DNA of 12,695 bases from Methanomicrobiales archaeon (GTDB lineage: Archaea > Halobacteriota > Methanomicrobia > Methanomicrobiales > JACTUA01): contig JAJRCS010000156.1 in the NCBI GenBank assembly GCA_028678815.1, forward strand, positions 1 through 12,695, read 5' to 3'. Below are positions 167-12,695 of the stretch, in pieces. A program made the position numbers and the translations under genes. Under the pieces are notes generated by a model. It was not told the DNA's origin and ran no database searches. It saw nothing but the letters and a program-made list of their open reading frames with translations. The first letter of the stretch is position 1, and each line of letters begins with the position of its first letter.

Positions 167-940
167 ATGGTCAGGAAACCGGGCAGGATGTACAGGAACC
201 TCGCCAAGAAGGCATACACGCGGCGTGAATACATGGGGGGCGTCCCCGGATCGAAGCTCGTCCAGTTCGACATGGGGAACCTCACCGAGGAGTTCCCCCT
301 GGAGCTCTCCATCATCGTCCTGGAGGGCTGCCAGATCCGGCACACGGCCCTCGAGGCCGCCCGGATCGTCATCAACCGGCGGCTCCAGGAGCTGGGGCGG
401 GCGAACTTCCGGCTGAAGATCCGGGTCTACCCCCACCACATTCTCAGGGAGAACAAGCAGGCCACCGGGGCCGGCGCAGACCGGGTCTCGGAGGGGATGC
501 GCCTCTCCTTCGGGAAGGCCGTGGGGTCCGCGGCCCGGGTCCGGCCCGGCCAGAAGATCCTCTCGGTCTACACCCTGATATCGAACCTCGAGAAGGTCAA
601 GGATGCCCTCCGGCACGGGTCCCACAAGCTCCCCACCCCGTCGCGGATCGAGATGACCACCCACAAGGTCTCGGGCATCCGGGCGGCCCACGTGAAGATC
701 GCCGAGGAGAGGGTCGTCGCCCCGCCGGTCGTCGCAGCGGCCGAGGAGGAGGCGGCCCCCGCGGCAGAGAAGGGCGAGAAGGGCGAGAAGGAGGCCGGGA
801 AGGCCGCCGAGAAGGGAGCCGGCAAGGGCGAGAAGGAGGCCGGGAAGGCCCCGGAGAAGGGAGCCGGGAAGGCCCCCGAGAAGGGCGCCAAGGCCCCCGA
901 GAAGGGCGGCAAGGGCGAGAAGCACGCCGAGAAGAAATAA
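167..940 (+). CDS. rpl10e: Ribosomal protein L10e (uL16 family) with long repeat tail
   Basis: Archaeal/eukaryotic L10e, the counterpart of bacterial L16, is a large-subunit protein near the central protuberance and the A-site tRNA elbow. The first ~180 residues are typical of the family: the N-terminal [20 protein letters not shown] stretch, then [28 protein letters not shown] and [21 protein letters not shown]. Archaeal L10e usually ends near residue 165-180. This protein has 257 residues, the last ~75 being low-complexity Glu, Lys, Gly, Ala and Pro (see the repeat at 781-937). The ATG at 167 is preceded by GAGGGTG (155-161), a good Shine-Dalgarno match. A T6 tract follows 22 nt after the stop. 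It appears to be a single-gene unit. The core identification is secure; the function of the tail is unknown. Confidence 0.95.
781..937 (+). repeat. 45-bp in-frame tandem repeat encoding the L10e tail
   Basis: GGGCGAGAAGGAGGCC begins at 781 and again at 826, giving a 45-bp (15-residue) period with two nearly identical copies of the peptide GEKEAGKA(A/P)EKGAGK. Shorter derivatives, [14 protein letters not shown] and GEKHAEKK, follow up to the stop codon. The unit length keeps the reading frame, so copy number could change without disrupting the protein. The composition resembles disordered tails of nucleic-acid-binding proteins. Confidence 0.85.
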
Positions 941-962
941 TCCCTTCACCCCCCTCCTGCCC

Positions 963-968
963 TTTTTT
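963..968 (+). terminator. T6 terminator after L10e
   Basis: Six T residues lie 22 nt past the L10e stop in a pyrimidine-rich stretch (CTGCCCTTTTTTCTCC) with no obvious hairpin. Archaeal RNA polymerase terminates at such U-tracts. It lies before the TATA box of the next operon. Confidence 0.6.
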
Positions 969-1001
969 CTCCGCCCCGCATCCGGTGCACCCTCCATCCA
1001 C

Positions 1002-1009
1002 CTTTATAT
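1002..1009 (+). promoter_or_regulatory. TATA box of the fum-kor-suc-dac operon
   Basis: CTTTATAT is the only AT-rich octamer between the L10e terminator and the fumarase gene. Its centre is about 27 nt before the ATG at 1033, so transcription should start at or within a few bases of that ATG. The stretch before the ATG (TTCCCTATTCCTTTCC) has no Shine-Dalgarno sequence, which fits a leaderless or near-leaderless mRNA. It also argues against the alternative GTG at 985, which lies upstream of the TATA box. Confidence 0.7.
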
Positions 1010-1032
1010 CGGACAGTTCCCTATTCCTTTCC

Positions 1033-1875
1033 ATGCATCGTGCCGATGACCCGGCCCTCCTCGCGGCCCTCGCCGAGGCGACCGCCGGCGCCCTCGCCGA
1101 GGCCGAGGTCCGGCTCCCCGGTGACGTGGAGCAGGCCATCCGGGCTGCCCATGGCCGGGAGAGGAACCCGGTCGCGAAGGGGGAGCTCGGGAACATCCTC
1201 GAGAACATCGCCCTCGCCGGGAAGGGCAGGACCCTCCTCTGCCAGGACACCGGGATACCGGTCATCTACCTCACCATCCCTCCGGATATTCCCTATACCC
1301 GGGCGCTGGAGGAGGCCGTCGCCAGGGGGGTGCGCCTCGCCACGGAGAGGATCCCCCTCAGGCCAAACGCCGTGGACCCGTGCACCCGGAAGAACACCGG
1401 CGACAACACGGGCCCGGGGATACCCCCGGTCCATGTCCAGCCGGGAGACCGGCTCACCGTCACGGTCCTCCCCAAGGGCGCCGGGTCCGAGAACGTCTCC
1501 CGGGTCGGGATGCTCCTCCCCACGAGGACAGCCGGCGTGGAGCAGTTTGTCGTCGAGACCGTCGCCCTCGCGGGAGGGAGGCCCTGCCCGCCCGTGATCC
1601 TCGGGGTGGGGATCGGGTCCACCTTCGACGGGGTCGCCGCCCTCGCGAAGGAGGCCCTCCTCCTCCCGGTCGATGCCATGGACCCCTTCGAGCAGCGGCT
1701 CTGCGGCGCGGTGAACAGCCTGGGCATCGGCCCCATGGGCCTCGGCGGGGACACCACGGCCCTCGCCGTGAAGGTGAAGAGGGCGGCGTGCCACACGGCG
1801 TCCCTCCCCGTGGCCGTGAACGTCCAGTGCTGGGCCGCCCGCCGGGCGACCCGGATCGTGGAGGGGTGGAAGTGA
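1033..1875 (+). CDS. fumA: Fumarate hydratase class I, alpha subunit
   Basis: The N-terminal half of the oxygen-sensitive [4Fe-4S] class I fumarase, which interconverts fumarate and malate and is split into two subunits in many archaea. It has 280 residues, normal for the alpha subunit. Family signatures are LCQDTGIPV (Cys70), TRKNTGDNTGPGIPPVH, GAGSENVSRVGML, CPPVILGVGIG (Cys185), GIGPMGLGGDTTALAVKVK and a C-terminal LPVAVNVQCWAARR (Cys266). The three numbered cysteines are placed as expected for cluster ligands. The ATG at 1033 is chosen over a GTG at 985 because the latter lies upstream of the TATA box. The stop overlaps the beta-subunit GTG by 4 nt. In this context fumarase should dehydrate malate in the reductive TCA branch; the tartrate dehydratase paralogue is an alternative name but fits the neighbours less well. 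Confidence 0.93.
   Translation: MHRADDPALLAALAEATAGALAEAEVRLPGDVEQAIRAAHGRERNPVAKGELGNILENIALAGKGRTLLCQDTGIPVIYLTIPPDIPYTRALEEAVARGVRLATERIPLRPNAVDPCTRKNTGDNTGPGIPPVHVQPGDRLTVTVLPKGAGSENVSRVGMLLPTRTAGVEQFVVETVALAGGRPCPPVILGVGIGSTFDGVAALAKEALLLPVDAMDPFEQRLCGAVNSLGIGPMGLGGDTTALAVKVKRAACHTASLPVAVNVQCWAARRATRIVEGWK
1860..1866 (+). promoter_or_regulatory. Ribosome binding site deciding the fumB start
   Basis: GGAGGGG lies 5 nt before the GTG at 1872. This GTG overlaps the alpha-subunit stop as GTGA and gives the N-terminus MKVTELRTPL expected for the family. GTG codons at 1866 and 1878 are possible but less well spaced. Confidence 0.6.
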
Positions 1876-2438
1876 AGGTGACGGAGCTCAGGACGCCCCT
1901 CGGGGAGGAGATCCTCTCCCTCCGGGCCGGTGACCGGGTCACCCTGTCGGGGACCGTCTACACGGCCCGGGACGAGGCCCACCTCCGGATGCAGGAGGGG
2001 GGCATTCCCTTCGATCCCCGGGGTGCCGTGGTGTACCACTGCGGCCCCGTGGTGGCCGGCGATCGGATCGTCGCCGCGGGCCCTACAACCTCGGCGAGGA
2101 TGGACGCCCTGACCGGGTTCCTCCTCGACGCCGGTGTCCGGGGGATCATCGGCAAGGGGGGGATGGGAAAGGGGGTCGTGGAGCTCCTCAGGGGGAGGGC
2201 GGTCTACCTTGCCTTCACCGGCGGATGTGCCGCCCTCGCCGCCTCCCGGATGCGGCTCCAGGGGGTGTACTTCCCGGAGCTCGGCATGGCGGAGGCCGTC
2301 TGGGCCATCGAGCTCGACCGGCTGCCCCTCGTGGTGGGGATCGATGCCCACGGGAACGACCTCTTCGGCCGGGTGTGGGACGAAGCGAAAGCACAATGTC
2401 GGGGCCGGTTCCATAGCTCCTCAGGAATCACACCATGA
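1872..2438 (+). CDS. fumB: Fumarate hydratase class I, beta subunit
   Basis: The C-terminal half of class I fumarase, 188 residues, which pairs with the alpha subunit to complete the active site. The product shows the family blocks in order: LRTPLGEEILSLRAGDRVTLSGTVYTARDEAH, VVYHCGPVV, AAGPTTSARMD, GIIGKGGMGKG, AFTGGCAAL and ELGMAEAVW. The length matches stand-alone beta subunits. The start overlaps the alpha stop (GTGA at 1872-1875) and the end overlaps the korD start (ATGA at 2435-2438), so translation is probably coupled on both sides. The last ~15 residues after AKAQCRGRF are poorly conserved in appearance. The symbol fumB is used in the archaeal two-subunit sense and is not related to E. 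coli FumB. Confidence 0.92.
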   Translation: MKVTELRTPLGEEILSLRAGDRVTLSGTVYTARDEAHLRMQEGGIPFDPRGAVVYHCGPVVAGDRIVAAGPTTSARMDALTGFLLDAGVRGIIGKGGMGKGVVELLRGRAVYLAFTGGCAALAASRMRLQGVYFPELGMAEAVWAIELDRLPLVVGIDAHGNDLFGRVWDEAKAQCRGRFHSSSGITP

Positions 2439-2707
2439 AGCTCGCCATCGACAGCAGCAGGTGCAAGGGGTGTAACCTCTGCATGCTCGTCTGCCCCTAC
2501 CGGATCTTCAAGGAGGGGAAGGAGCAGAACGAGCGGGGGATCATCCTCCCCGAGCTCGACCGTCCCGAGCGCTGCCCCAACTGCCGGCTCCAGAAGCTCT
2601 ACGGCCGGACCCTCTGCGGCCTCTGCCAGATGATCTGCCCGGACCAGGCCATCCGCTGGGATGACGAGGCGAAGAACGAGCGGCAGAAGGTGGAGGTGGA
2701 GTTTTGA
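2435..2707 (+). CDS. korD: 2-oxoglutarate:ferredoxin oxidoreductase, delta (ferredoxin) subunit
   Basis: A 90-residue dicluster ferredoxin-like protein. The first cluster motif is complete: Cys10, Cys13, Cys16 and Cys20-Pro. The second region has Cys47 and Cys50, an insertion, then Cys61, Cys64 and Cys68-Pro; four of these should bind the second [4Fe-4S] cluster. The family usually spaces these cysteines more tightly, and the RLQKLYGRTL insertion is the visible difference. Its position directly before the alpha, beta and gamma genes identifies it as the delta subunit that passes electrons between the thiamine pyrophosphate centre and external ferredoxin. The ATG overlaps the fumB stop by 4 nt, and the end overlaps the TTG of korA. 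Confidence 0.9.
   Translation: MKLAIDSSRCKGCNLCMLVCPYRIFKEGKEQNERGIILPELDRPERCPNCRLQKLYGRTLCGLCQMICPDQAIRWDDEAKNERQKVEVEF
2692..2701 (+). promoter_or_regulatory. Strong ribosome binding site supporting a TTG start for korA
   Basis: GGAGGTGGAG matches the archaeal anti-Shine-Dalgarno sequence. Its core GGAGGT ends 6 nt before the TTG at 2704, which overlaps the korD stop as TTGA. The next candidate, ATG at 2722, would remove the conserved VEFMQGN start of the protein. Confidence 0.6.
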
Positions 2708-3804
2708 GCCGCGTTGAGTTCATGCAGGGGAACACCGCCTGCGCCGAGGGGGCCCTCGCCGCGGGCTGCGGGTTCTTCGCCGGTTACCCCATCACCCCGT
2801 CCACCGAGGTCGCCGAGCACATGGCCGCGAAGCTCCCGAAGCGGAAGGGGGTCTTTGTCCAGATGGAGGACGAAATTGCCTCCATCGCGGCGGTCATCGG
2901 GGCTTCCTGGACCGGGGCAAGGGCCATGACCGCCACCTCGGGGCCGGGCTTCTCCCTCATGATGGAGAACCTCGGGTACGCGGTCATGACCGAGACCCCC
3001 TGCGTCGTGGTGAACATCCAGCGGGGGGGCCCCTCCACGGGCCAGCCGACCCTCGGGGCCCAGGGGGACATGCTCCAGTGCCGGTTCGGGTCCCACGGGG
3101 ACTACAGCATCATCGCCCTCTCCCCCTCCTCGGTCCAGGAGATGTTCGAGCTGACGGCGAAGGCCTTCTCCCTCTCGGAGCGGTACCGGGTCCCGGCCTT
3201 CCTCATGGGCGACGAGATCATCGGCCACATGCGGGAGCGGCTCACCATCCCCGACTCGGTGGAGGTGGCGGCCCGGAGGAGGCTCGAGCCGGGCACCCTG
3301 CCCTACACGGCAGGGGAGGACGGGATCCCGGGCTTCCCCACCTTCGGGCAGGGGTACGGGGTCCACGTGACGGGGCTCACCCACGACGAGCGGGGCTACC
3401 CGGCCGCCACGAACCCGAGGCTCCACGAGAAGCTCGTCATGCGCCTCGTCCACAAGGTGGAGTCGGCGCGGAAGGAGATGGCGGACTACGTGGTCACGAA
3501 CCCGGGTGCCGAGCAGGTCTTCATCTCCTACGGGGCCCCTGCCCGGTCCGTCTTCCAGCTCCTCCACGACCGGCCGGGGGAGGAGATCGGCCACCTCCGG
3601 CTCCGGGTGGTCTGGCCCTTCCCGGAGTTCGCCCTCGGGGAGTTCCCCGACGCGAAAACCTTCCTCGTCCCCGAGATGAACCTGGGGCAGGTGGCCCGGG
3701 AGATCCAGCGGCACACCGACGTGCCGGTCATCCCCGTCCCCCGGCTCGGCGGGGACCTCCACCCGCCGGCGATGCTCGCGAAGGCCCTGGAGGCATCCCG
3801 ATGA
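2704..3804 (+). CDS. korA: 2-oxoglutarate:ferredoxin oxidoreductase, alpha subunit
   Basis: A 366-residue alpha subunit of the 2-oxoacid:ferredoxin oxidoreductase family. The N-terminal pyrimidine-binding domain shows the family signature EFMQGNTACAEGALAAGCGFFAGYPITPSTE, followed by QMEDEIASIAAVIGASWTGARAMTATSGPGFSLM and VVNIQRGGPSTGQPT. The second half (from about residue 270, VFISYGAPARSVFQLL, then LGQVAREIQRH) is the domain II region. The GYPITPSTE form and the domain order fit 2-oxoglutarate rather than pyruvate enzymes, and the adjacent succinyl-CoA synthetase agrees. The reaction is succinyl-CoA + CO2 + reduced ferredoxin to 2-oxoglutarate in the anabolic direction. It starts with TTG overlapping korD and ends overlapping the korB ATG. 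Confidence 0.92.
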   Translation: MSRVEFMQGNTACAEGALAAGCGFFAGYPITPSTEVAEHMAAKLPKRKGVFVQMEDEIASIAAVIGASWTGARAMTATSGPGFSLMMENLGYAVMTETPCVVVNIQRGGPSTGQPTLGAQGDMLQCRFGSHGDYSIIALSPSSVQEMFELTAKAFSLSERYRVPAFLMGDEIIGHMRERLTIPDSVEVAARRRLEPGTLPYTAGEDGIPGFPTFGQGYGVHVTGLTHDERGYPAATNPRLHEKLVMRLVHKVESARKEMADYVVTNPGAEQVFISYGAPARSVFQLLHDRPGEEIGHLRLRVVWPFPEFALGEFPDAKTFLVPEMNLGQVAREIQRHTDVPVIPVPRLGGDLHPPAMLAKALEASR

Positions 3805-4589
3805 GCTTCAGGGACTGGTACCGGGCCGACCGGCTCCCCACCATCTACTGCGCCGGGTGCGGGAACGGGACGGTCATCAACTGCGCCCTCCATGCCGTGG
3901 ACACCCTCGGCTGGAGGTGGGAGGATACCATCTTTGTCTCGGGGATCGGGTGCTCGTCCAGGGCGCCGGGGTACATCCGGACCGACTCCCTCCACACCAC
4001 CCATGGCCGGGCCCTCGCCTTCGCGACAGGGATCAAGCTCGCGAGGCCGGAGCTCCACGTCGTGGTCTTCACGGGCGACGGCGATCTCGCCGCCATCGGC
4101 GGGAACCACTTCATCCACGCCTGCCGCCGGAACGTGGACATGACGGTCATCTGCATGAACAACTGGATCTACGGGATGACCGGCGGGCAGGGCTCCCCGA
4201 CCACGCCCCGGGGGGCCATCACCACGACGACCCCCTACGGCTCGGGGGAAGGGGTCTTCGACCTCTCGGCCCTCGCCGTGGCTGCGGGGGCGAACCACGT
4301 TGCCCGGTGGACATCGTACCATGTGAAGGAGCTCACGAATGCCATCGACGCGGGACTCCGGACCCCCGGTTTTTCCCTCATCGAGGTCCTCACCCAGTGT
4401 CCCACCGCGTACGGGAGGAGGAACAAGCTCCGGGAGGTCTCGGACACCATCGAGTACCTGAAGACCCATGCCATCCTCCTCCAGAGGTACAACCGGCTCG
4501 TCGCCGAGGGGAAGCCGGTCCCGGAGGACATGTTCACCGTCGGGGAGTTCGTCCGGAGGAACCGGCCGGCCATGGGGGTACCGCCATGA
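3801..4589 (+). CDS. korB: 2-oxoglutarate:ferredoxin oxidoreductase, beta (TPP-binding) subunit
   Basis: A 262-residue beta subunit carrying the thiamine pyrophosphate site. The N-terminus has the family CAGCGNG motif (Cys17, Cys20). The diphosphate/Mg-binding motif begins with GDGD (92-95), followed by LAAIGGNHFIHACRRN and ending in MNNWIYGMTGGQ. Between them lies ISGIGCSSRAPGY, whose Cys is conserved in the family. The length is slightly below the usual 270-290. The ATG overlaps the korA stop (ATGA, 3801-3804), and the end overlaps the korC ATG (4586-4589). The start is unambiguous because the MSFRDWYRADRLPTIYCAGC sequence begins just before the conserved block. Confidence 0.94.
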   Translation: MSFRDWYRADRLPTIYCAGCGNGTVINCALHAVDTLGWRWEDTIFVSGIGCSSRAPGYIRTDSLHTTHGRALAFATGIKLARPELHVVVFTGDGDLAAIGGNHFIHACRRNVDMTVICMNNWIYGMTGGQGSPTTPRGAITTTTPYGSGEGVFDLSALAVAAGANHVARWTSYHVKELTNAIDAGLRTPGFSLIEVLTQCPTAYGRRNKLREVSDTIEYLKTHAILLQRYNRLVAEGKPVPEDMFTVGEFVRRNRPAMGVPP

Positions 4590-5122
4590 GGCACGAGGTC
4601 CGGTTCTCGGGCTTCGGCGGGCAGGGGATCATCCTCGCCGCGGTGATCCTCGGCCGGGCCGCGGCCCTCTACGACGGGAAGCACGCGGTCCAGACCCAGG
4701 TCTACGGGCCCGAGGCCCGGGGGGGCGCCTCCATGTCCGCGGTGATCATCGACGACGAGCCCATCCTCTACCCGGAGGTGACCGTCCCGGACATCTATGT
4801 CATCATGTCCCAGGAGGGCTTCGAGCGGTACGGGGCGAAGGCCCCGGCGGAGGCGGTGATGGTCATCGACTCCGACATGGTGGAGGCCCGGCCTGCCTGC
4901 CGCTTCGTCGAGGTAAAGGCCACCTCGGAGGCCCGGATCACCCTCGGGAAGGTCATCGTGGCGAACATCGTGATGCTCGGCGCCGTCGTCGCGACGACGG
5001 GGGTCGTCTCCGACGCGGCCATCGAGAAGGCGGTCCTGGACAGCGTCCCGAAGGGGACCGAGAAGCTGAACCTGGCCGCGCTGAGGAAGGGCATGGAGCT
5101 CGTGAGGGTGAAGAAGCCATGA
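4586..5122 (+). CDS. korC: 2-oxoglutarate:ferredoxin oxidoreductase, gamma subunit
   Basis: A 178-residue gamma subunit. It begins with the diagnostic MRHEVRFSGFGGQGIILAA, where GFGGQG (residues 9-14) is the family signature. It continues with VQTQVYGPEARGGASMSAVII, IVMSQE-like IYVIMSQEGFERY, and a C-terminal helix region that closes the fold. It completes the D-A-B-C subunit order of this operon, which is common for methanogen 2-oxoglutarate synthases. The ATG overlaps the korB stop, and the TGA at 5120-5122 overlaps the sucC ATG. Confidence 0.93.
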   Translation: MRHEVRFSGFGGQGIILAAVILGRAAALYDGKHAVQTQVYGPEARGGASMSAVIIDDEPILYPEVTVPDIYVIMSQEGFERYGAKAPAEAVMVIDSDMVEARPACRFVEVKATSEARITLGKVIVANIVMLGAVVATTGVVSDAAIEKAVLDSVPKGTEKLNLAALRKGMELVRVKKP

Positions 5123-6204
5123 GGCTCGCCGAATACGAGGCGAAGGAGATCCTCAAAACATACGGGATTCCCGTCCCGGCAGGAGCGGTCATCAGGAGCC
5201 CCGGGGAGCTCGGCCCCCGGCTCGGGGAGTTCGGGGACGAGATCGTCCTGAAGGCCCAGGTCCCCGTCGGGGGAAGGGGGAAGGCCGGGGGTATCATCGT
5301 CACCGGGAAGGGCGAGGCCGTCTCCCGGGCAGCGGCCCTCTTCGGGAAGGAGATCCGGGGGTTCCCGGTGAGGGAGATCCTCGCGGAGGAGCGGCTCGCC
5401 ATCGGGAAGGAGTACTATCTCTCCATCGCCGTGGACCGGTCCTCCCGGCAGCCCCTCGTGCTCTTCGCCGAGGCCGGGGGGGTGGAGATCGAGGCGGTGG
5501 CGAGGGAGCGGCCGGAGGCGGTCCGGAGGATCATTGTTTCCCCGCTCCTCGCCGAGATCCCGCCCTTCGCCCTCCGGGACCTCCTCGGGGACCTCGCAAA
5601 GGACCTCGCACCCGTCGCGAACCGGCTCTACCGGATCTTCCGGGAGAAGGACGCCATCCTTGCCGAGATCAACCCCCTCGTCACGACGCCGAAGGGGATC
5701 TGTGCCGCCGATGCAAAGATCATCGTGGACGAGAGCGCCCTCGCCAGGCAGAAGCTCGGGAAGGGCCGGGCCAAGACGGACAGGGAGCAGCAGGCGGAGG
5801 CCCACGGGTTCTCGTACGTCGACCTGGACGGGGACATCGGGGTCATCGGGAATGGCGCGGGGCTCACCATGGCAACCATCGACCTCATCGCCCTCTACGG
5901 GGGGAAGGCGGCGAACTTCCTGGACGTGGGCGGCGGGGCCGACCGGGAGCGGGTGAAGCATGCCGTTCAGCTCGTGGCCGGCCTCCCGTCGGTGAAGGTC
6001 ATCGTCCTGAACATCCTCGGGGGGATCACCCGGTGCGACGAGGTGGCGAAGGGGATCCTGGAGGCGGGTATCGCCCAGAAGGTGATGGTCCGCCTCGCCG
6101 GCGTGAACGAGGACGAGGGCCGGGCCCTCCTCGCGGGGAAGGGGTACACCATGTTCGAGACCATGGACGAGGCCGTGCTCGCGGCCGCGGGGGCGATCCG
6201 GTGA
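5119..6204 (+). CDS. sucC: Succinyl-CoA synthetase, beta subunit
   Basis: The 361-residue ADP/GDP-forming beta subunit. The N-terminal ATP-grasp domain begins MRLAEYEAKEILKTYGIPVP and contains VLKAQVPVGGRGKAGGI; ILAEINPLV provides the metal-binding region. The C-terminal ligase domain shows GNGAGLTMATIDLI, ANFLDVGGGA and LNILGGITRCDEVAKGI. With SucD it links succinate, CoA and nucleotide triphosphate to form succinyl-CoA, the substrate of the KOR complex encoded just upstream. The length is slightly short of the usual 380-390 residues. It overlaps korC and sucD by 4 nt each. Whether ATP or GTP is used cannot be told from the sequence by eye. Confidence 0.95.
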   Translation: MRLAEYEAKEILKTYGIPVPAGAVIRSPGELGPRLGEFGDEIVLKAQVPVGGRGKAGGIIVTGKGEAVSRAAALFGKEIRGFPVREILAEERLAIGKEYYLSIAVDRSSRQPLVLFAEAGGVEIEAVARERPEAVRRIIVSPLLAEIPPFALRDLLGDLAKDLAPVANRLYRIFREKDAILAEINPLVTTPKGICAADAKIIVDESALARQKLGKGRAKTDREQQAEAHGFSYVDLDGDIGVIGNGAGLTMATIDLIALYGGKAANFLDVGGGADRERVKHAVQLVAGLPSVKVIVLNILGGITRCDEVAKGILEAGIAQKVMVRLAGVNEDEGRALLAGKGYTMFETMDEAVLAAAGAIR

Positions 6205-7067
6205 TCTATGCAGACAGGTCCACCGGGGTCATCGTGACGGGCGCGACCGGGAACCAGGGGAAGTTCCACATCCCCTTCATGAACGCCTATGCCCGGCAGG
6301 TGGGCGGAAAGGGGATCGTCGCCGGTGTTACGCCCGGGAAGGGCGGGCAGGAGGTGTCCGGGGTGCCGGTGTACAACAGCATCCGCGAGGCCCTCAGGGA
6401 GCACGATGCCGGTGCTGCCGTCGTCTTCGTCCCGGCCGGGGCCGCCATGGACTCGGTCATGGAGTGCGCCTATGCGGGCATCGGGCTCATCGTCACCATC
6501 ACCGAGCAGATCCCGGTGCATGACACCATGAAGGCCATCGAGTATGCCCGTCTCCAGGGCTCGGCGGTCATCGGCCCCAACTGCCCGGGCCTCCTCTCGC
6601 CCGGCGAGTGCAAGCTCGGGATCATCCCGGCCCAGCTCGCCACCCGGGGGAACGTCGGGGTGGTCTCCCGGAGCGGCACCCTCACCTACGAGGTGATCCA
6701 CGAGCTCACCCGGGCAGGCATCGGACAGTCCACGGTGGTGGGGATCGGCGGGGACCCGGTCATCGGGCAGACCTTCACCGACGTCCTCGGGCAGTTCGAG
6801 GGGGACCCGGAGACGAAGGCCGTGGTCCTCATCGGGGAGGTGGGGGGAAGCCTCGAGGAGGAGGGGGCCGCCTCCACCGACCTGCCCCTCGTCGCCTACG
6901 TCGCCGGGGTGACCGCCCCGCCCGAGAAGCGCATGGGCCACGCGGGGGCCATCATCGAGGGCGGGGAGGGGGACGCCCGGTCCAAGATCCGGAGGCTTGA
7001 CGGCATGGGCATCGCGGTGGCAGAACGTCCGGGGGAGATACCGGACCTCATCCGGGGGTACCTGTAG
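6201..7067 (+). CDS. sucD: Succinyl-CoA synthetase, alpha subunit
   Basis: A 288-residue alpha subunit with the CoA-binding Rossmann domain at the N-terminus (GVIVTGATGNQGKFH, then VTPGKGGQEVSGVPVYN) and the ligase domain after it. GPNCPGLLSPGECKLGIIP and SRSGTLTYEV are characteristic. The phosphohistidine motif MGHAGAIIEGG places the active-site His at residue 247, matching His246 of the E. coli enzyme. The start is GTG, overlapping the sucC stop as GTGA (6201-6204). The TAG at 7065-7067 directly abuts the GTG of the next gene. Confidence 0.95.
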   Translation: MIYADRSTGVIVTGATGNQGKFHIPFMNAYARQVGGKGIVAGVTPGKGGQEVSGVPVYNSIREALREHDAGAAVVFVPAGAAMDSVMECAYAGIGLIVTITEQIPVHDTMKAIEYARLQGSAVIGPNCPGLLSPGECKLGIIPAQLATRGNVGVVSRSGTLTYEVIHELTRAGIGQSTVVGIGGDPVIGQTFTDVLGQFEGDPETKAVVLIGEVGGSLEEEGAASTDLPLVAYVAGVTAPPEKRMGHAGAIIEGGEGDARSKIRRLDGMGIAVAERPGEIPDLIRGYL

Positions 7068-7880
7068 GTGGCGAACGAAGATCTCATGATGGAGGCCGCG
7101 GCGAAGATCGCCGCCGCCATCGGCGCGAAGGCCATCGTCTCGTACACGAAGCGGTGCGAGTGCGCCACCGAGATCCCGGTGATCTGGGTCCGGGAGCTCC
7201 AGATAGACGTGGTACAGGACCTCACCATGCCGGATATCCTCGAGATCTCCGAGCGGCACCTCCTGGACACCGCCATCCAGCTCTACCTGGAGCGCCGGCT
7301 CGAGAAGGGGCAGGTCGTCGGGGTCTTCCCCTATGCCATCCTCCTCTATGACATCGAGGAGGGGAAGCACTTCATCCGGCTCCAGGAGTTCGAGGACATC
7401 GTGCCCCGGGACGTCATGTTCTCGGTGCTCTCCCTCGCCATGCAGATCGCGGCCGAGGGGAGGGAGGGGCGGCCCATCGGCACGGCGTTTATCATCGGCG
7501 ACGGGGAGACCCTTCTCAAGCACTCCCACCAGGCCATCCTCAACCCGTACGAGGGGCAGCACCGGGTGGTCTGCGACGTGAAGAACCGGGAGAACTGGGA
7601 GTCCATCAAGGAGCTCGCCCAGCTGGACGGGATGTTCATCGTGAACACCGACGGCTTCATCCTCGCCTCGGGCCGGTACCTGGACGCCTCGGCGAGGGAC
7701 GTGACCCTCCCCGGCGGCCTCGGGGGGAGGCACCGGGCCACCGCGGCCATCACGAGGGAGCACCCGGTTGTCGGGGTGGCGGTCTCGGAGAGCGGGGGCA
7801 CCATCCGCGTCTTCCGGGAGGGGCAGATCCGGATCTCCCTCCGGCCCTACGAGCGGAGGTACCCGGTTGGAAACGGTTAA
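7068..7880 (+). CDS. dacZ: Diadenylate cyclase (c-di-AMP synthase), archaeal DacZ-like
   Basis: A 270-residue protein whose C-terminal half is a DisA_N/DAC domain: GTAFIIGDGETLLKHSHQ, NPYEGQHRVVCD, ELAQLDGMFIVNTDG (DGM at 187-189), LPGGLGGRHRATAAIT (Arg221-His222-Arg223) and VSESGGTIRVFREG. DAC enzymes condense two ATP into c-di-AMP; RHR and DGA are their key nucleotide-binding motifs. RHR is intact, while DGA reads DGM. The N-terminal ~120 residues form a separate alpha/beta region, as in archaeal DacZ. No membrane segment is visible, so it should be cytosolic. The GTG at 7068 abuts the sucD stop; ATG codons at 7086 and 7089 are alternatives. The lack of a gap makes it the last gene of the TCA operon. 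c-di-AMP controls potassium, osmolytes and, in some bacteria, pyruvate carboxylase. Confidence 0.85.
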   Translation: MANEDLMMEAAAKIAAAIGAKAIVSYTKRCECATEIPVIWVRELQIDVVQDLTMPDILEISERHLLDTAIQLYLERRLEKGQVVGVFPYAILLYDIEEGKHFIRLQEFEDIVPRDVMFSVLSLAMQIAAEGREGRPIGTAFIIGDGETLLKHSHQAILNPYEGQHRVVCDVKNRENWESIKELAQLDGMFIVNTDGFILASGRYLDASARDVTLPGGLGGRHRATAAITREHPVVGVAVSESGGTIRVFREGQIRISLRPYERRYPVGNG

Positions 7881-7906
7881 ATGAATACCTGACCCTTTTC
7901 TATTAT
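7877..7906 (+). promoter_or_regulatory. Probable promoter of the metK-his cluster
   Basis: The 53-nt gap before metK is the only AT-rich stretch between 1033 and 11289. It contains two TATA-like elements, TTAAATGA (7877-7884, overlapping the dacZ stop) and TCTATTAT (7899-7906). The first would give a leader of roughly 25 nt that includes the GAGG ribosome site. The second would give an almost leaderless mRNA. Read-through from the upstream operon is also possible, since no T-tract longer than four is present. Confidence 0.4.
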
Positions 7907-7933
7907 CGCGCTATCATGTGAGCGAGGCGACCG

Positions 7934-9136
7934 ATGAGCAGGAACATTCGCGTGGAAGCCCTCGATCAGACGCCCATCGAACAGCAGCGGATCGAGCTCG
8001 TGGAACGGAAGGGGATCGGCCACCCCGACAGCCTCATGGACGGGATCGCCGAGTCGGTGAGCCGCGCCCTCTCCAGGGCGTACATGGAGGAGTGCGGGGC
8101 CGTCCTCCACCACAACACCGACCAGGGCGAGGTGGTGGGCGGGGAGACCCGTCCGGCCTTCGGCGGGGGAAGGGTCATCAAGCCCATCTACGTCCTCCTC
8201 GTGGGCCGGGCGACGAAGGAGTTCAATGGCATGCACTTCCCCACCGACTCCATCGCGGTGGCCTCGGCGAGGGACTACATCCGGGAGACCCTCACGAACG
8301 CGGACATGGACCGGGACGTCATCGTGGACTGCCGGCTCGGCGAGGGGTCCACCGACCTCCGGGACGTCTTCCGGCCCTGCCAGGACACGAAGCCCCGGGC
8401 GAACGACACCTCCTTCGGCGTGGGGCATGCCCCCTTCTCCGAGGCCGAGACCATCGTCCGGGGCCTCTCGGACGCCATCGACGGCCCCCTGAGGAGGAAG
8501 TACCCGGTCCTCGGGCAGGACGTGAAGATCATGGCCCTCCGGGACGGGGACAGCATCACCCTTACCGTGGCCTGCGCCATGGTGGGCCGGTACTGCTCGG
8601 GCATCCACGAGTACCTGGAGGTGAAGGAGACCCTGCAGGGAGAGCTCGAGAAGGTGGCCCGGCGGCATACGAACCGGCAGGTGAGGGTCGACGTGAATAC
8701 CGCCGACAACCCGGACGCCGGGTCGGTCTTTCTCACGGTCAACGGGACCTCGGCCGAGATGGGGGACGACGGTTCCGTCGGGCGGGGGAACCGGTGCAAC
8801 GGCCTCATCACCCCGAACCGGCCCATGTCCATGGAGGCAACGAGCGGGAAGAACCCCATCAACCACATCGGGAAGATCTACAACCTCCTCTCCACCCAGG
8901 TGGCGCAGGAGTGCGTGTCAGAGGTGGACGAGATCGAGGAGATCTACATCCGGATCCTCTCCCAGATCGGGAACCCCATCGACCGGCCCCTCGTGGCGAG
9001 CGCCCAGATCATCCCGAAGGACGGGCGGAACTTCAGGGCCATCTCCCGGGAGGTCGAGGCCATCATCGACGCCTCCCTGGAGAATGTCACCTGCGTCACG
9101 GAGAAGGTAATATCCGGTGAGCTCAAGACCTTCTGA
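7934..9136 (+). CDS. mat: S-adenosylmethionine synthetase, archaeal type
   Basis: The 400-residue archaeal class of methionine adenosyltransferase, very divergent from bacterial MetK but of the same fold and reaction: ATP + methionine + H2O to SAM + phosphate + diphosphate. Recognisable blocks are ERKGIGHPDSLMDGIAE, FNGMHFPTDSIAV, RANDTSFGVGHAPFSE, NTADNPDAGSVFLTVNGTSA, GDDGSVGRGNRCNGLITPNR and SMEATSGKNPINHIGKIYN. The length agrees with the family (~400). The ATG at 7934 has GAGG at 7925-7928 as a weak ribosome site. The 3' end overlaps hisG by 20 nt. In a methanogen SAM also feeds radical-SAM and methyltransferase reactions of cofactor synthesis. Confidence 0.95.
   Translation: MSRNIRVEALDQTPIEQQRIELVERKGIGHPDSLMDGIAESVSRALSRAYMEECGAVLHHNTDQGEVVGGETRPAFGGGRVIKPIYVLLVGRATKEFNGMHFPTDSIAVASARDYIRETLTNADMDRDVIVDCRLGEGSTDLRDVFRPCQDTKPRANDTSFGVGHAPFSEAETIVRGLSDAIDGPLRRKYPVLGQDVKIMALRDGDSITLTVACAMVGRYCSGIHEYLEVKETLQGELEKVARRHTNRQVRVDVNTADNPDAGSVFLTVNGTSAEMGDDGSVGRGNRCNGLITPNRPMSMEATSGKNPINHIGKIYNLLSTQVAQECVSEVDEIEEIYIRILSQIGNPIDRPLVASAQIIPKDGRNFRAISREVEAIIDASLENVTCVTEKVISGELKTF
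9100..9108 (+). promoter_or_regulatory. Ribosome binding site inside metK that sets the hisG start
   Basis: GGAGAAGGT lies within the last codons of the SAM synthetase gene, 8 nt before the GTG at 9117. No later ATG, GTG or TTG occurs before the conserved LAVPNKGRI block, so the 20-nt overlap between the genes looks real. Confidence 0.55.
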
Positions 9137-9992
9137 CCTCGTCCGGCTCGCCGTCCCGAACAAGGGACGGATCGCGGGGCCGGTGCGGGAGATACTGGGA
9201 AAGTGCGGCCTCCACCCCGAGGGGGACGGGAGGCAGCTCATCGCCCCCACGAGGGACCCCCTCGTGGAGATCCTCTTCGCCCGGCCGGCCGACATCCCGG
9301 AGTACGTCGCCTCGGGCGTCGCCGACCTCGGGATCACGGGGCTCGACCTCGTCAGGGAGCGGGGGGTGCAGGTCCGGGACCTCCTGGACCTCCAGGTGGG
9401 CAGGGCGCGGCTTGTCGTGGCGGTCCCCGACGAGTCGGGGGTGAAGGGGCTCGCGGGGCTCGCGGGGGCGAGGGTCGCCACCGAGTTCCCGTCCATCACC
9501 CGGGACTTCTTCGGGGAGCAGGGGATCGTCATCTCCGTGGTCCGGGTCGGCGGGGCCTGCGAGGTGACCCCCCACCTCGGGATCGCGGAGGCCATCGTGG
9601 ACCTCACCGCCTCGGGGGAGACCCTCAGGACCCACAACCTCCGGGAGATCGCGGAGATCCTCGCCACCTCCACGCGGCTCATCGGGAACGAGGAGTCCTG
9701 CAGGAGCAAGGGTGAGAAGGTGGAGGAGATCCGGGTTGCCCTCGAGAGCGTCATCCGGGCCCGGGGGCAGTGCTACCTGATGATGAACGTCAGGAGGCCG
9801 GCCCTCGGGAAGGTGAAGAAGGTCCTCCCCGGCCTCTCCGGGCCCACGGTGATGGAGGTCGCCTCCTCCGAGGACCTCGTGGCCGTCCACGCGGTGGTGG
9901 AGGAGGACCGGATCTACCGGCTCATCCCCCTCCTGAAGAAGGCCGGGGCGAGGGACATCCTCGTCATGCCCATCGACCGGATGGTACGCTGA
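9117..9992 (+). CDS. hisG: ATP phosphoribosyltransferase, long form
   Basis: First enzyme of histidine synthesis, joining ATP and PRPP to phosphoribosyl-ATP. It has 291 residues, the long HisG form with its own C-terminal regulatory domain, so no HisZ partner is needed. Seen in order: [18 protein letters not shown] at the N-terminus, [21 protein letters not shown], the hinge and second lobe with [16 protein letters not shown], the PRPP-loop region [18 protein letters not shown], and from about residue 215 the ACT-like domain ([20 protein letters not shown] through [10 protein letters not shown]), where histidine feedback inhibition is expected. It starts inside metK and ends 2 nt before hisA, so it is co-transcribed with both. 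Confidence 0.95.
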
Positions 9993-9994
9993 TC

Positions 9995-10711
9995 ATGCCG
10001 ATGGTGGTCTATCCCGCGGTGGACATCCTGGGCGGGAGGTGCGTCCAGCTCGTGCAGGGGAAGCGGGAGACGGCCACCGTCTACGGCGATCCCCTGGACT
10101 GCGCGAGGCGGTGGATCCGGGCGGGGGCCGAGGCCCTCCATGTCATCAACCTGGACGGGGCCTTCGGGGACTCGGGGACGAACGCGGGGCTCATCCGGGG
10201 GATCATCCGGGAGACCGGGGTCTTCCTGCAGCTCGGCGGTGGGATCCGGACCCTCGAGGATGCCCGGGGGTGGCTCGGCCTCGGCGTGGACCGGGTCATC
10301 CTGGGGACCCTCGCGGTCCGGGAGCCCGGGGCCGTGGCGACCCTCGCCCGGGAGGCGGGCTCCCCCCGGGTCATGGCCTCGGTGGATGCCCGGGCGGGCC
10401 GGGTGGTGGTGGAGGGCTGGCGGGAGGCCGGCGGGGACTACCTGGAGTGGGCCCGCAGGTTCCGGGAGCTCGGGGCCGGGTCCCTCCTCTATACGAACGT
10501 GGATGTGGAGGGCCTCCAGCAGGGCATCAGGAAGGAGCCCGTGGAGCGGCTCCTCGCGGCCGCCGGGCTCCCGGTGGTGGTCGCGGGCGGCGTGACCACC
10601 CTCGGGGACGTCACGGCCCTGAAGGGGCTCGGTGCCGCGGGGGTGGTCCTCGGGTCTGCCCTCTACAGCGGGAAGATCGATCTCGGGAAGGCGATTGCGG
10701 TATGCCGGTGA
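9995..10711 (+). CDS. hisA: ProFAR isomerase (HisA)
   Basis: A (beta-alpha)8-barrel enzyme of 238 residues, the fourth step of histidine synthesis. The catalytic aspartates are visible as YPAVDIL (Asp10) and MASVDARAG (Asp131). Phosphate-binding loops appear as [13 protein letters not shown] in the first half and [13 protein letters not shown] with [10 protein letters not shown] in the second, the half-barrel duplication typical of HisA/HisF. HisA rather than HisF is indicated by [16 protein letters not shown] and the [12 protein letters not shown] stretch. The ATG at 9995 is chosen; an in-frame ATG at 10001 is equally possible. It is 2 nt after hisG and overlaps hisB by 10 nt. Confidence 0.94.
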
Positions 10712-11289
10712 GGAAAGGGAAGGTCGAGAGGAAGACAGGCGAGACGAAGATCATGGTGGGCATCACCCTCGAGGGGACGGGGAGGGCCGCGGTGGAGACC
10801 GGCATCCCCTTCCTGGACCACATGCTCGGGGCCTGTGCCCGGCACGGGAGGTTCGATCTCGAGGTGAAGGCCGCGGGGGACCTCGGCGTGGACCCCCACC
10901 ACCTCGTGGAGGACACGGGGATCGTCCTCGGGCAGGCCCTCCGGAAGGCCGTCGGGAACGGGGAGGGGATCAACCGGTTCGGCTTTGCCTCCGTCCCCAT
11001 GGACGAGGCCCTCGCCCAGGTCTCCCTCGACTGCGGCGGGAGGCCGTACCTCGTCTGGACCGGGTCCTTCGGCCTCCCCTCCCTCGGGGGCATCCCCCCC
11101 GAGCTCTTCGAGCACTTCTTCGCGAGTCTCTGCAGCCACGCGGGGATCACCGCCCATGTTCGCTTCGCGGGCAGGTCGGACCACCACCAGTGCGAGGCGG
11201 TCTTCAAGGCCTTCGGCCGGGCCCTCGCCGAAGCTGTTACGATTATACCTGGTACGACGGATGTCCCTAGTACCAAGGGGACGTTCTAA
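10702..11289 (+). CDS. hisB: Imidazoleglycerol-phosphate dehydratase
   Basis: The 195-residue monofunctional dehydratase (no histidinol-phosphatase domain), sixth step of histidine synthesis. Two metal-binding His motifs are present: [10 protein letters not shown] (residues 64-73) and [17 protein letters not shown] (159-175), preceded by [16 protein letters not shown]. The protein ends [13 protein letters not shown], the usual C-terminus. It starts within hisA (10-nt overlap) and is last in the cluster, with a T6 tract 3 nt after the stop. Only three histidine genes are here, so the rest of the pathway must be encoded elsewhere. Confidence 0.95.
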
Positions 11290-12144: not shown

Positions 12145-12695
12145 TCACCGTTTTACCAGTTTTGAGGCGGTAATCAGGGCATTGGCGTAATCCGGGGATG
12201 CGCGCGAGCTATCAACAAAGATTCTGTCGATATTCACCACCGGCGCCCCGTGGGCCTCCCCGCCGCCGAGGTGGACCAGGGTCCGGAAGACGAGGTTCCC
12301 CGAGATGCCGTCCGGGGCGAGGATCAGGCCGGCCGACCCGATGGCCTCCTCGATGAGGATCTCCCGGTGGATGGCCCCCGTCAGCCGGGCGACGAGCTCG
12401 GCCTGGGCGATGGTCCGGTCCACCACCGGGTGCCGGCCCAGGTCCCCCAGCCTCCCGCCGGAGAGGACCGCCACCTCGCCGGGAAGGCCGAAGGTGGCGA
12501 GGTACCCCCGCCCCCGCTCGATGAGCTCCACCTTCTCCTCCACCGTCCACCCCTCGTCTACCCCGACCGGTGCGAGGAGGAACCTCCTCCCGGCCCGGGT
12601 CGAGAGGAGGGCGATCCTGAGGAGGTGATCCATCCCGGTTGCCTCCCTGAGGGCCCGGAGCGTCGGGTTGGACGCGAGGGAACCCCGGACGGCGG
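12145..12695 (-). CDS. mtxX: Methanogenesis marker protein 4 / MtxX-like (5' end missing)
   Basis: The frame is open from the window edge to a TGA at 12145-12147, giving 182 residues of the C-terminal part. An internal Met at 12633 is not the start, because ASNPTLRALREATG reads in frame before it. Blocks such as RFLLAPVGVDEGWTVEEK, LAPDGISGNLVFRTLVHLGGG and VNIDRIFVDSSRAS agree with what I recall of MtxX, a protein family found in methanogens (methanogenesis marker 4) and distantly related to phosphate acetyl/butyryltransferases. It was named as a putative methyltransferase, but its biochemical function is not established. The gene ends in an AT-rich spacer with a terminator. Family assignment is from memory of these motifs. 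Confidence 0.75.
   Translation of the reverse strand, partial: AVRGSLASNPTLRALREATGMDHLLRIALLSTRAGRRFLLAPVGVDEGWTVEEKVELIERGRGYLATFGLPGEVAVLSGGRLGDLGRHPVVDRTIAQAELVARLTGAIHREILIEEAIGSAGLILAPDGISGNLVFRTLVHLGGGEAHGAPVVNIDRIFVDSSRASPDYANALITASKLVKR

Follow-up and report, generated by a model that had tools for sequence, protein, structure and literature searches.

We analysed a stretch of 12,695 nucleotides from a Methanomicrobiales archaeon (contig JAJRCS010000156.1, hereafter "the window"), which belongs to a genome that is 71% complete and in 241 contigs. Between positions 1033 and 7880 its + strand carries nine genes, fumA-fumB-korD-korA-korB-korC-sucC-sucD-dacZ, identified from open reading frames (ORFs) and from Pfam and NCBIfam matches (Table 1). 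Neighbouring genes are joined by 4-base overlaps throughout (at the sucC-sucD join, the GTG start at 6201-6203 overlaps the TGA stop at 6202-6204; searches with sucD used the query span 6204-7064), except between sucD and dacZ, where the two genes abut. Here the GTG start of dacZ at 7068 is the base right after the sucD stop codon (TAG, 7065-7067), and this start matches the N-termini of aligned relatives. An earlier note on this DNA had described a gapless chain of nine genes ending in a cyclase gene that abuts sucD, and the ORFs and domain matches bear this out. With fumAB, korDABC and sucCD collinear and overlapping, the genes before dacZ have the layout of an operon for the synthesis of 2-oxoglutarate, an acid that accepts nitrogen, through an incomplete reductive tricarboxylic acid (TCA) cycle; because korB, korD and sucC score below their NCBIfam cut-offs, the substrates of the kor and suc products are assigned by family and context. 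Downstream of dacZ lies metK, followed by hisG from position 9117.

The dacZ product is predicted to be a two-domain diadenylate cyclase that keeps its catalytic residues and would make cyclic di-adenosine monophosphate (c-di-AMP) from ATP. Its C-terminal DAC domain scores 66.1 bits against a cut-off of 27, and the catalytic residues D187-G188 and R221-H222 are invariant in 47 aligned sequences. At the N-terminus lies a DacZ_A domain, which is the PK_C-like domain of archaeal diadenylate cyclases of the DacZ/CdaZ type, and in a predicted model residues 1-97 resemble the C-terminal domain of pyruvate kinase. Both the enzyme family and this N-terminal domain are already known. The protein scores 106.4 bits with the haloarchaeal DacZ equivalog NF041371, far below the cut-off of 430. 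In place of the A of the DGA motif, 77 of 78 loci have V, M or I; the one remaining match (DGD/GCRHL) looks spurious. A strict motif pattern had no match in 13 of 19 loci of family f5 and in 14 of 42 loci outside the order, which we do not take as motif loss.

Table 1. Features of the window, by position
Feature	Position	Strand	Evidence or remark
TATA-box-like TTTATATC	1003..1010	+	30 nt before fumA ATG
fumA, fumarate hydratase alpha subunit	1033..1875	+	PF05681; NF004885 above cut-off
fumB, fumarate hydratase beta subunit	1872..2438	+	PF05683; GTG start overlaps fumA
korD, ferredoxin-like delta subunit, 2-oxoacid:ferredoxin oxidoreductase	2435..2707	+	best NCBIfam match OGOR_delta, below cut-off
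korA, 2-oxoacid:acceptor oxidoreductase alpha subunit	2704..3804	+	NF006412 above cut-off
korB, beta subunit	3801..4589	+	best NCBIfam match 2-oxoglutarate ferredoxin oxidoreductase beta, below cut-off
korC, gamma subunit	4586..5122	+	TIGR02175 above cut-off
sucC, succinate-CoA ligase beta subunit	5119..6204	+	TIGR01016 just below cut-off
sucD, succinate-CoA ligase alpha subunit	6201..7067	+	TIGR01019 above cut-off
dacZ, predicted diadenylate cyclase, 270 aa	7068..7880	+	GTG start
DacZ_A domain (PF21754)	7083..7358	+	Pfam 2.1e-25
DAC domain (PF02457)	7446..7826	+	Pfam 2.7e-18
GGTTAAATGA, possible metK promoter box	7875..7884	+	spans dacZ stop
metK, archaeal-type S-adenosylmethionine synthetase	7934..9136	+	dacZ neighbour, recurs in other families of the phylum

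Linkage of sucD and dacZ across the Methanomicrobiales

We searched named genome contigs with an alignment of 15 sequences and kept the best 80 of the 165 relatives found. We counted 78 of these loci (L032-L109) as Methanomicrobiales, including some labelled only Euryarchaeota that were placed here by shared operon and similarity; the other two come from Archaeoglobaceae (L110) and Methanosalsum (L111). L086, whose contig begins inside dacZ, was left out, and in 76 of the remaining 77 Methanomicrobiales loci dacZ is immediately preceded by sucD on its own strand; only L094 differs. Of the 80 loci, 57 show the longer collinear order korD-korA-korB-korC-sucC-sucD-dacZ; in many of the rest the contig breaks off before the operon is complete. 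Measured with the dacZ start nearest the sucD stop, a choice that favours overlap, the distance between the two codons is -4 bp in 58 of the 77 loci, -1 in nine, 0 in two, +2 in three and 24-39 in five. The outer sides of the sucD-dacZ pair are less stable than the pair itself: fumB adjoins korD in 42 of the 57 loci where this is visible, and metK lies within 700 bp downstream of dacZ in 52 of the 73 Methanomicrobiales loci with room.

Among 199 genomes of the order, a DAC domain is present in 193 and DacZ_A in 117. By coordinates, a DacZ_A gene directly follows sucD on its contig and strand in 109 of the 110 genomes of families f1-f4 and f6 (f1 being the window's own family; G044, G056, G091, G126 and G134 stood outside this check), with a gap between the hits of 11-132 bp and a median of 17. 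This is the conserved adjacency of cyclase and partner that marks DAC operons of the GlmM and RadA type. With the window and G068 (locus L116) added, dacZ follows sucD in 111 of 112 genomes and lies beside a sucD remnant in the other one. The gene-order comparison that the earlier note had proposed has thus been made, and the linkage is not restricted to one strain; because gene order is conserved across the Methanomicrobiales, it goes beyond chance, and in most families dacZ forms part of the 2-oxoglutarate operon.

Exactly one DAC match was found in 105 of the 108 DAC-bearing genomes of f2, f3, f4 and f6, by a hand count that includes some incomplete genomes, and two in G102, G106 and G141. 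In many Methanomicrobiales, the probable sole c-di-AMP synthase sits inside a central anabolic operon. Seven of the 11 genomes of f1 have at least two DAC matches, the window's own incomplete genome having one; further f1 DACs include L130 (G008:C2) and G002:C6:368342, which in G008 and G002 lie on contigs other than that of the kor-suc locus. In f5, DacZ_A was found in one of 75 genomes (G068; family size by hand count), and the three f5 DACs that were scanned (L120, L112, L115) carry receiver and PAS, TPR or PKD regions and lie at other loci.

Transcription signals and the proposed role of DacZ

We compared the 8-mers on the + strand of positions 901-9200 with the archaeal TATA-box consensus, which we take to be TTTAWATA. 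TTTATATC is the only one to match it at 7 or more of 8 positions, and A/T-rich boxes comparable to it by eye lie upstream of fumA in some, not all, of 17 relatives. The earlier note's view that no promoters lie within the chain agrees with the lack of any TATA-like site of at least 6/8 within 1011-7870, an absence that says little because, in DNA this GC-rich, 31% of shuffles also have none (1.24 sites on average). A scan for sigma-70 promoters was dropped as the wrong promoter model for an archaeon. At the other end of the operon, a box of the form GTTA[AT]AT[GC]A precedes metK by no more than 100 nt in 39 of 57 loci, the window (GGTTAAATGA) included, and the exact form GGTTATATGA in 23 of 57 (raw counts over related loci). 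This box suggests that metK may have its own promoter and that dacZ may end the transcription unit.

To judge from the order and spacing of the genes, dacZ is probably co-transcribed and translationally coupled with the 2-oxoglutarate operon. We propose that it is the last, translationally coupled gene of an operon whose enzymes would convert fumarate by way of succinyl-CoA to 2-oxoglutarate. A single promoter would drive the transcript, standing ahead of fumA or, in loci that lack fumAB at that end, ahead of korD. Ribosomes that end sucD would go on to dacZ, since its start codon overlaps or adjoins the stop. Given such a position, the dose of the synthase would probably be tied to expression of the branch, so that its amount would track the capacity for 2-oxoglutarate and glutamate. 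Since in other organisms c-di-AMP influences the balance of potassium and osmolytes, as work on Bacillus and Haloferax indicates, a likely use would be to keep a potassium-restraining c-di-AMP signal in step with the supply of glutamate, a main counter-anion. In B. subtilis, c-di-AMP, potassium and glutamate are linked, as described in the accessible part of PMC8822347. That DacZ is a general, housekeeping c-di-AMP synthase whose dose is set together with the 2-oxoglutarate operon has, in our judgement, about an even chance of being correct.

Cyclase neighbourhoods outside the order

In a sample of 146 genomes from the phylum, 30 of them Methanomicrobiales, 133 have a DAC domain. Forty loci were fetched from other families, and 39 of them gave a DAC match (L189 did not). 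In six of the 40 (L157, L161, L164, L165, L166 and L168), mscS lies directly downstream of DAC, as published for haloarchaea, while thpR is divergent from DAC in L153, L170 and L191. The sole kor/suc match near a DAC in these families is a 29% match to korC, 4 kb off and on the opposite strand, in L180. On the same strand, metK lies 47-392 bp downstream in L155 (f11), L159 and L175 (f15) and L163 (f19), and it lies 3.9 kb from DAC in L178. In f14, a gene for a bacterial-type MetK follows dacZ at 29-249 bp in L158, L172 and L174 and at 1025 bp in L173, the MetK type having been checked by Pfam in L155 and L158 and the other f14 loci matching the L158 protein at 78-83%. These f14 genes (L158:6935-8185 and those in L172, L173 and L174) stand where other families have archaeal-type metK, in an apparent replacement that kept the neighbourhood.

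Among the loci examined, the metK neighbour therefore extends beyond the order, and the sucD-dacZ linkage is restricted to the Methanomicrobiales. One could read metK as the older partner, which kor-suc joined later, and look for coupling to S-adenosylmethionine or to shared use of adenylate. S-adenosylmethionine synthetase is a potassium-activated enzyme, and such a history would fit the presence of metK downstream of DAC in f11, f14, f15 and f19 as well as in the 52 of 73 Methanomicrobiales loci. However, a TATA-like box may serve metK alone in the Methanomicrobiales; the gene is not within 700 bp in the other 21 of the 73 loci (1.2-1.6 kb away in L042, L047 and L078), and it was not seen next to DAC in most of the 40 loci from other families. 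We consider this reading quite unlikely. The recurrence of metK beside the cyclase gene in other families gives another starting point for finding what c-di-AMP does in archaea.

Genes of other pathways also stand beside these cyclases. A leuC-like gene is divergent upstream of dacZ within 100 bp in L155 (where it belongs to the aconitase family), L160, L163, L176, L177 and L178, and at 626 bp in L172; leuD-like genes are also among the divergent upstream neighbours. L167 has a malic enzyme gene (L167:6591-7913) on the dacZ strand, some 100 bp ahead of dacZ, a neighbour from C4 metabolism in a different lineage.

Candidate targets of c-di-AMP

The earlier note had gone further in suggesting that c-di-AMP is tied to the reductive TCA branch and might report or control the entry of carbon. 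In its most direct form, c-di-AMP would bind and inhibit pyruvate carboxylase (or KOR) in a feedback loop, for which the known inhibition of the L. monocytogenes and L. lactis carboxylases provides a precedent (PMC8822347 and PMC9581989, in their accessible parts). The PYC_OADA domain of the pyruvate carboxylase beta subunit is indeed present in 26 of 26 genomes; but because it is there with or without the sucD-dacZ linkage, equally so in f5 genomes that lack it, its presence does not track the linkage. The beta subunit of G002 is far nearer to the two-subunit carboxylase 5ks8 (3.2e-165) than to the single-chain enzymes 5vyw of L. lactis (3.1e-98) and 4qsh (5e-96), which we take to be that of L. 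monocytogenes. Archaeal pyruvate carboxylases have, moreover, been proposed as a separate category, their beta subunits having a large deletion in the PT/BT-like region, as far as the accessible text of PMC5059739 goes.

Surveys of other domains likewise show no target of c-di-AMP. The PII-like c-di-AMP receptor family PF06153 had no match in any of the 26 genomes, the positive controls being B. subtilis, Thermus and Deinobacterium. Neither TrkA_C (26 of 26 genomes and 13 of 14 controls) nor DHHA1 (13 of 13 genomes and 14 of 14 controls) discriminates, and no c-di-AMP phosphodiesterase was identified from the DHHA1 search in those 13 genomes. We regard direct control of carbon entry as highly improbable. 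What stands of the earlier suggestion is that dacZ belongs to the operon across most of the order and that the dose of the synthase is probably tied to expression of the branch. A role of c-di-AMP in reporting or controlling the entry of carbon is not supported as stated, given a PYC_OADA domain that does not track the linkage, the two-subunit likeness of the G002 enzyme, the empty PF06153 survey and the Methanorbis locus described below.

Where the linkage breaks

All 30 f5 genomes searched have sucD. We fetched 20 f5 sucD loci, three of them picked because a DAC lies nearby; dacZ is kept after sucD in these three (L134, L137 and L138), and the other 17 are without it. In 20 loci around DAC matches (19 from f5 and one from f1), kor-suc lies beside DAC only in L116. 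The simplest reading of this distribution is that the linkage dates back to the ancestor of the order, or nearly so, and that part of f5 has since lost it. The place after sucD in f5 loci without dacZ is often taken by an LQPGE / KKF.F.AYLT / RLFL-type protein (L132, L133, L139, L150), which lies further downstream in L136, L142 and L145 and which we guess to have a PH-like fold; a similar-looking protein of the IGE..IRYCDGIRIK type is found in the f5 loci L147, L148, L149 and L151.

L094, the exception among the Methanomicrobiales loci, comes from Candidatus Methanorbis basalitermitum and is identical in DNA to G129, a genome that is 74% complete. At L094:9702-9992, a 96-residue ORF joins the first 60 residues of korD, in frame, to the C-terminal 40 or so residues of SucD (BLASTP against korD and SucD of L098, 8e-40 and 2e-9 in a four-sequence set); korA, korB and korC are missing from this locus, as are sucC and the greater part of sucD. 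Directly behind this fusion, with a 4-bp overlap, lies dacZ (9989-10795), both domains of which score over cut-off. Neither sucD nor a close korA (29% identity at best) turned up in the rest of this incomplete genome, which is weak evidence of genome-wide absence because G137, also incomplete, has no close korA either and does have sucD. It is the korD-SucD scar that carries the case for a deletion. The case concerns one species and one assembly, and a mis-assembly, though possible, would need to have produced an in-frame fusion and kept the overlap. Since dacZ is intact behind the deletion, DacZ appears to have been kept even without this route to 2-oxoglutarate, in what amounts to a natural experiment parting cyclase from pathway.

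Several observations weigh against a dose of DacZ set with the 2-oxoglutarate branch. The loci are related by descent and so are not independent, and tight order inside an operon can be retained for co-expression alone. Of the f5 loci read (L116 included), 17 of 21 have kor-suc without dacZ, their DACs lying elsewhere; L094 has lost kor-suc at the locus yet keeps dacZ; and kor/suc genes adjoin DAC in none of the 39 loci outside the order, nor in L110 or L111. TrkA_C says little here, because two organisms in which no DAC was found, E. coli and Sulfolobus, have it as well. The main rival explanation is that dacZ, as a probably essential gene, came to lie behind a steadily expressed operon by a capture in the ancestor of the Methanomicrobiales, and is kept there by its need for that promoter and for ribosome hand-over, with no regulatory tie between c-di-AMP and 2-oxoglutarate. 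One such event followed by vertical descent could explain all loci; it would also suit the varying partners in other families (mscS, metK, leuC, thpR) and the dacZ of L094, which outlives the deletion of the branch and still sits behind the korD-sucD remnant with a 4-bp overlap. It fits less well with a DacZ_A-type gene following sucD in 111 of 112 genomes though the outer neighbours on both sides have changed, and we hold such passive capture to be possible, if somewhat doubtful. The dose coupling that we prefer would link the supply of a second messenger to that of 2-oxoglutarate, and the linkage, conserved across most of the order, makes this directly testable in cultured strains.

Other features of the window

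Before the operon, at 167-940, lies a gene for ribosomal protein L10e/L16 with a long Ala/Lys/Glu/Gly-rich tail, the Pfam match ending at residue 161 of 257. A minus-strand ORF (12145-12633), downstream of the his genes and found in the same place in many relatives, encodes what we presume to be a protein resembling methanogenesis marker protein 4 (MtxX).

Comparison with known systems

To our knowledge, archaeal c-di-AMP has one well-studied case, that of Haloferax, where the context is osmotic. Galperin (2023) is said to have reviewed DAC architectures. Among the titles and abstracts listed for open-licence papers on c-di-AMP in archaea and methanogens and on the setting of dacZ, we found no description of the sucD-dacZ linkage, the dacZ-metK neighbourhood or the Methanorbis deletion, though an earlier description is possible.

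Among studied systems, the closest to the window's cyclase is DacZ of Haloferax volcanii, which makes c-di-AMP and is essential, altered levels leading to hypo-salt phenotypes (PMC6741144, in its accessible part). Like the window's protein, it is an archaeal DAC with a PK_C-like N-terminal domain, encoded in a predicted operon; but that operon, dacZ-mscS2, has two genes, its partner is a mechanosensitive channel rather than kor-suc (PMC6741144), and the H. volcanii motif reads DGA where our loci have DG[VMI]. The same source names the classes DacX, DacW and DacV for DACs of Methanoregula, Methanospirillum and Methanosphaerula, which belong to the same order as the window.

Two bacterial systems resemble the window in operon layout. 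In Firmicutes, a housekeeping cyclase gene likewise stands in conserved order beside a gene for a metabolic enzyme, in cdaA-cdaR-glmM; cdaA is co-transcribed with glmM, and GlmM binds and inhibits CdaA by blocking the formation of active oligomers. In B. subtilis, RadA, encoded just upstream of disA as SucD is upstream of DacZ, inhibits DisA (both PMC8573169, in its accessible part). Because these pairs give a precedent, we keep as our boldest reading that SucCD or KOR may be a direct protein partner of DacZ, with the state of the 2-oxoglutarate branch switching the cyclase, perhaps through a metabolite bound in the PK_C-like domain. Argued by analogy, it seems to us unlikely; if true, it would make c-di-AMP a metabolic reporter of anabolic carbon flux and of potassium-glutamate balance in these methanogens. 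The parallels have their limits. CdaA is membrane-linked, and inhibition by GlmM has been shown there, whereas the likeness of SucCD or KOR to such a partner is suggested here by gene order; the radA-disA pair differs in its DNA repair context and in the architecture of DisA (PMC8573169).

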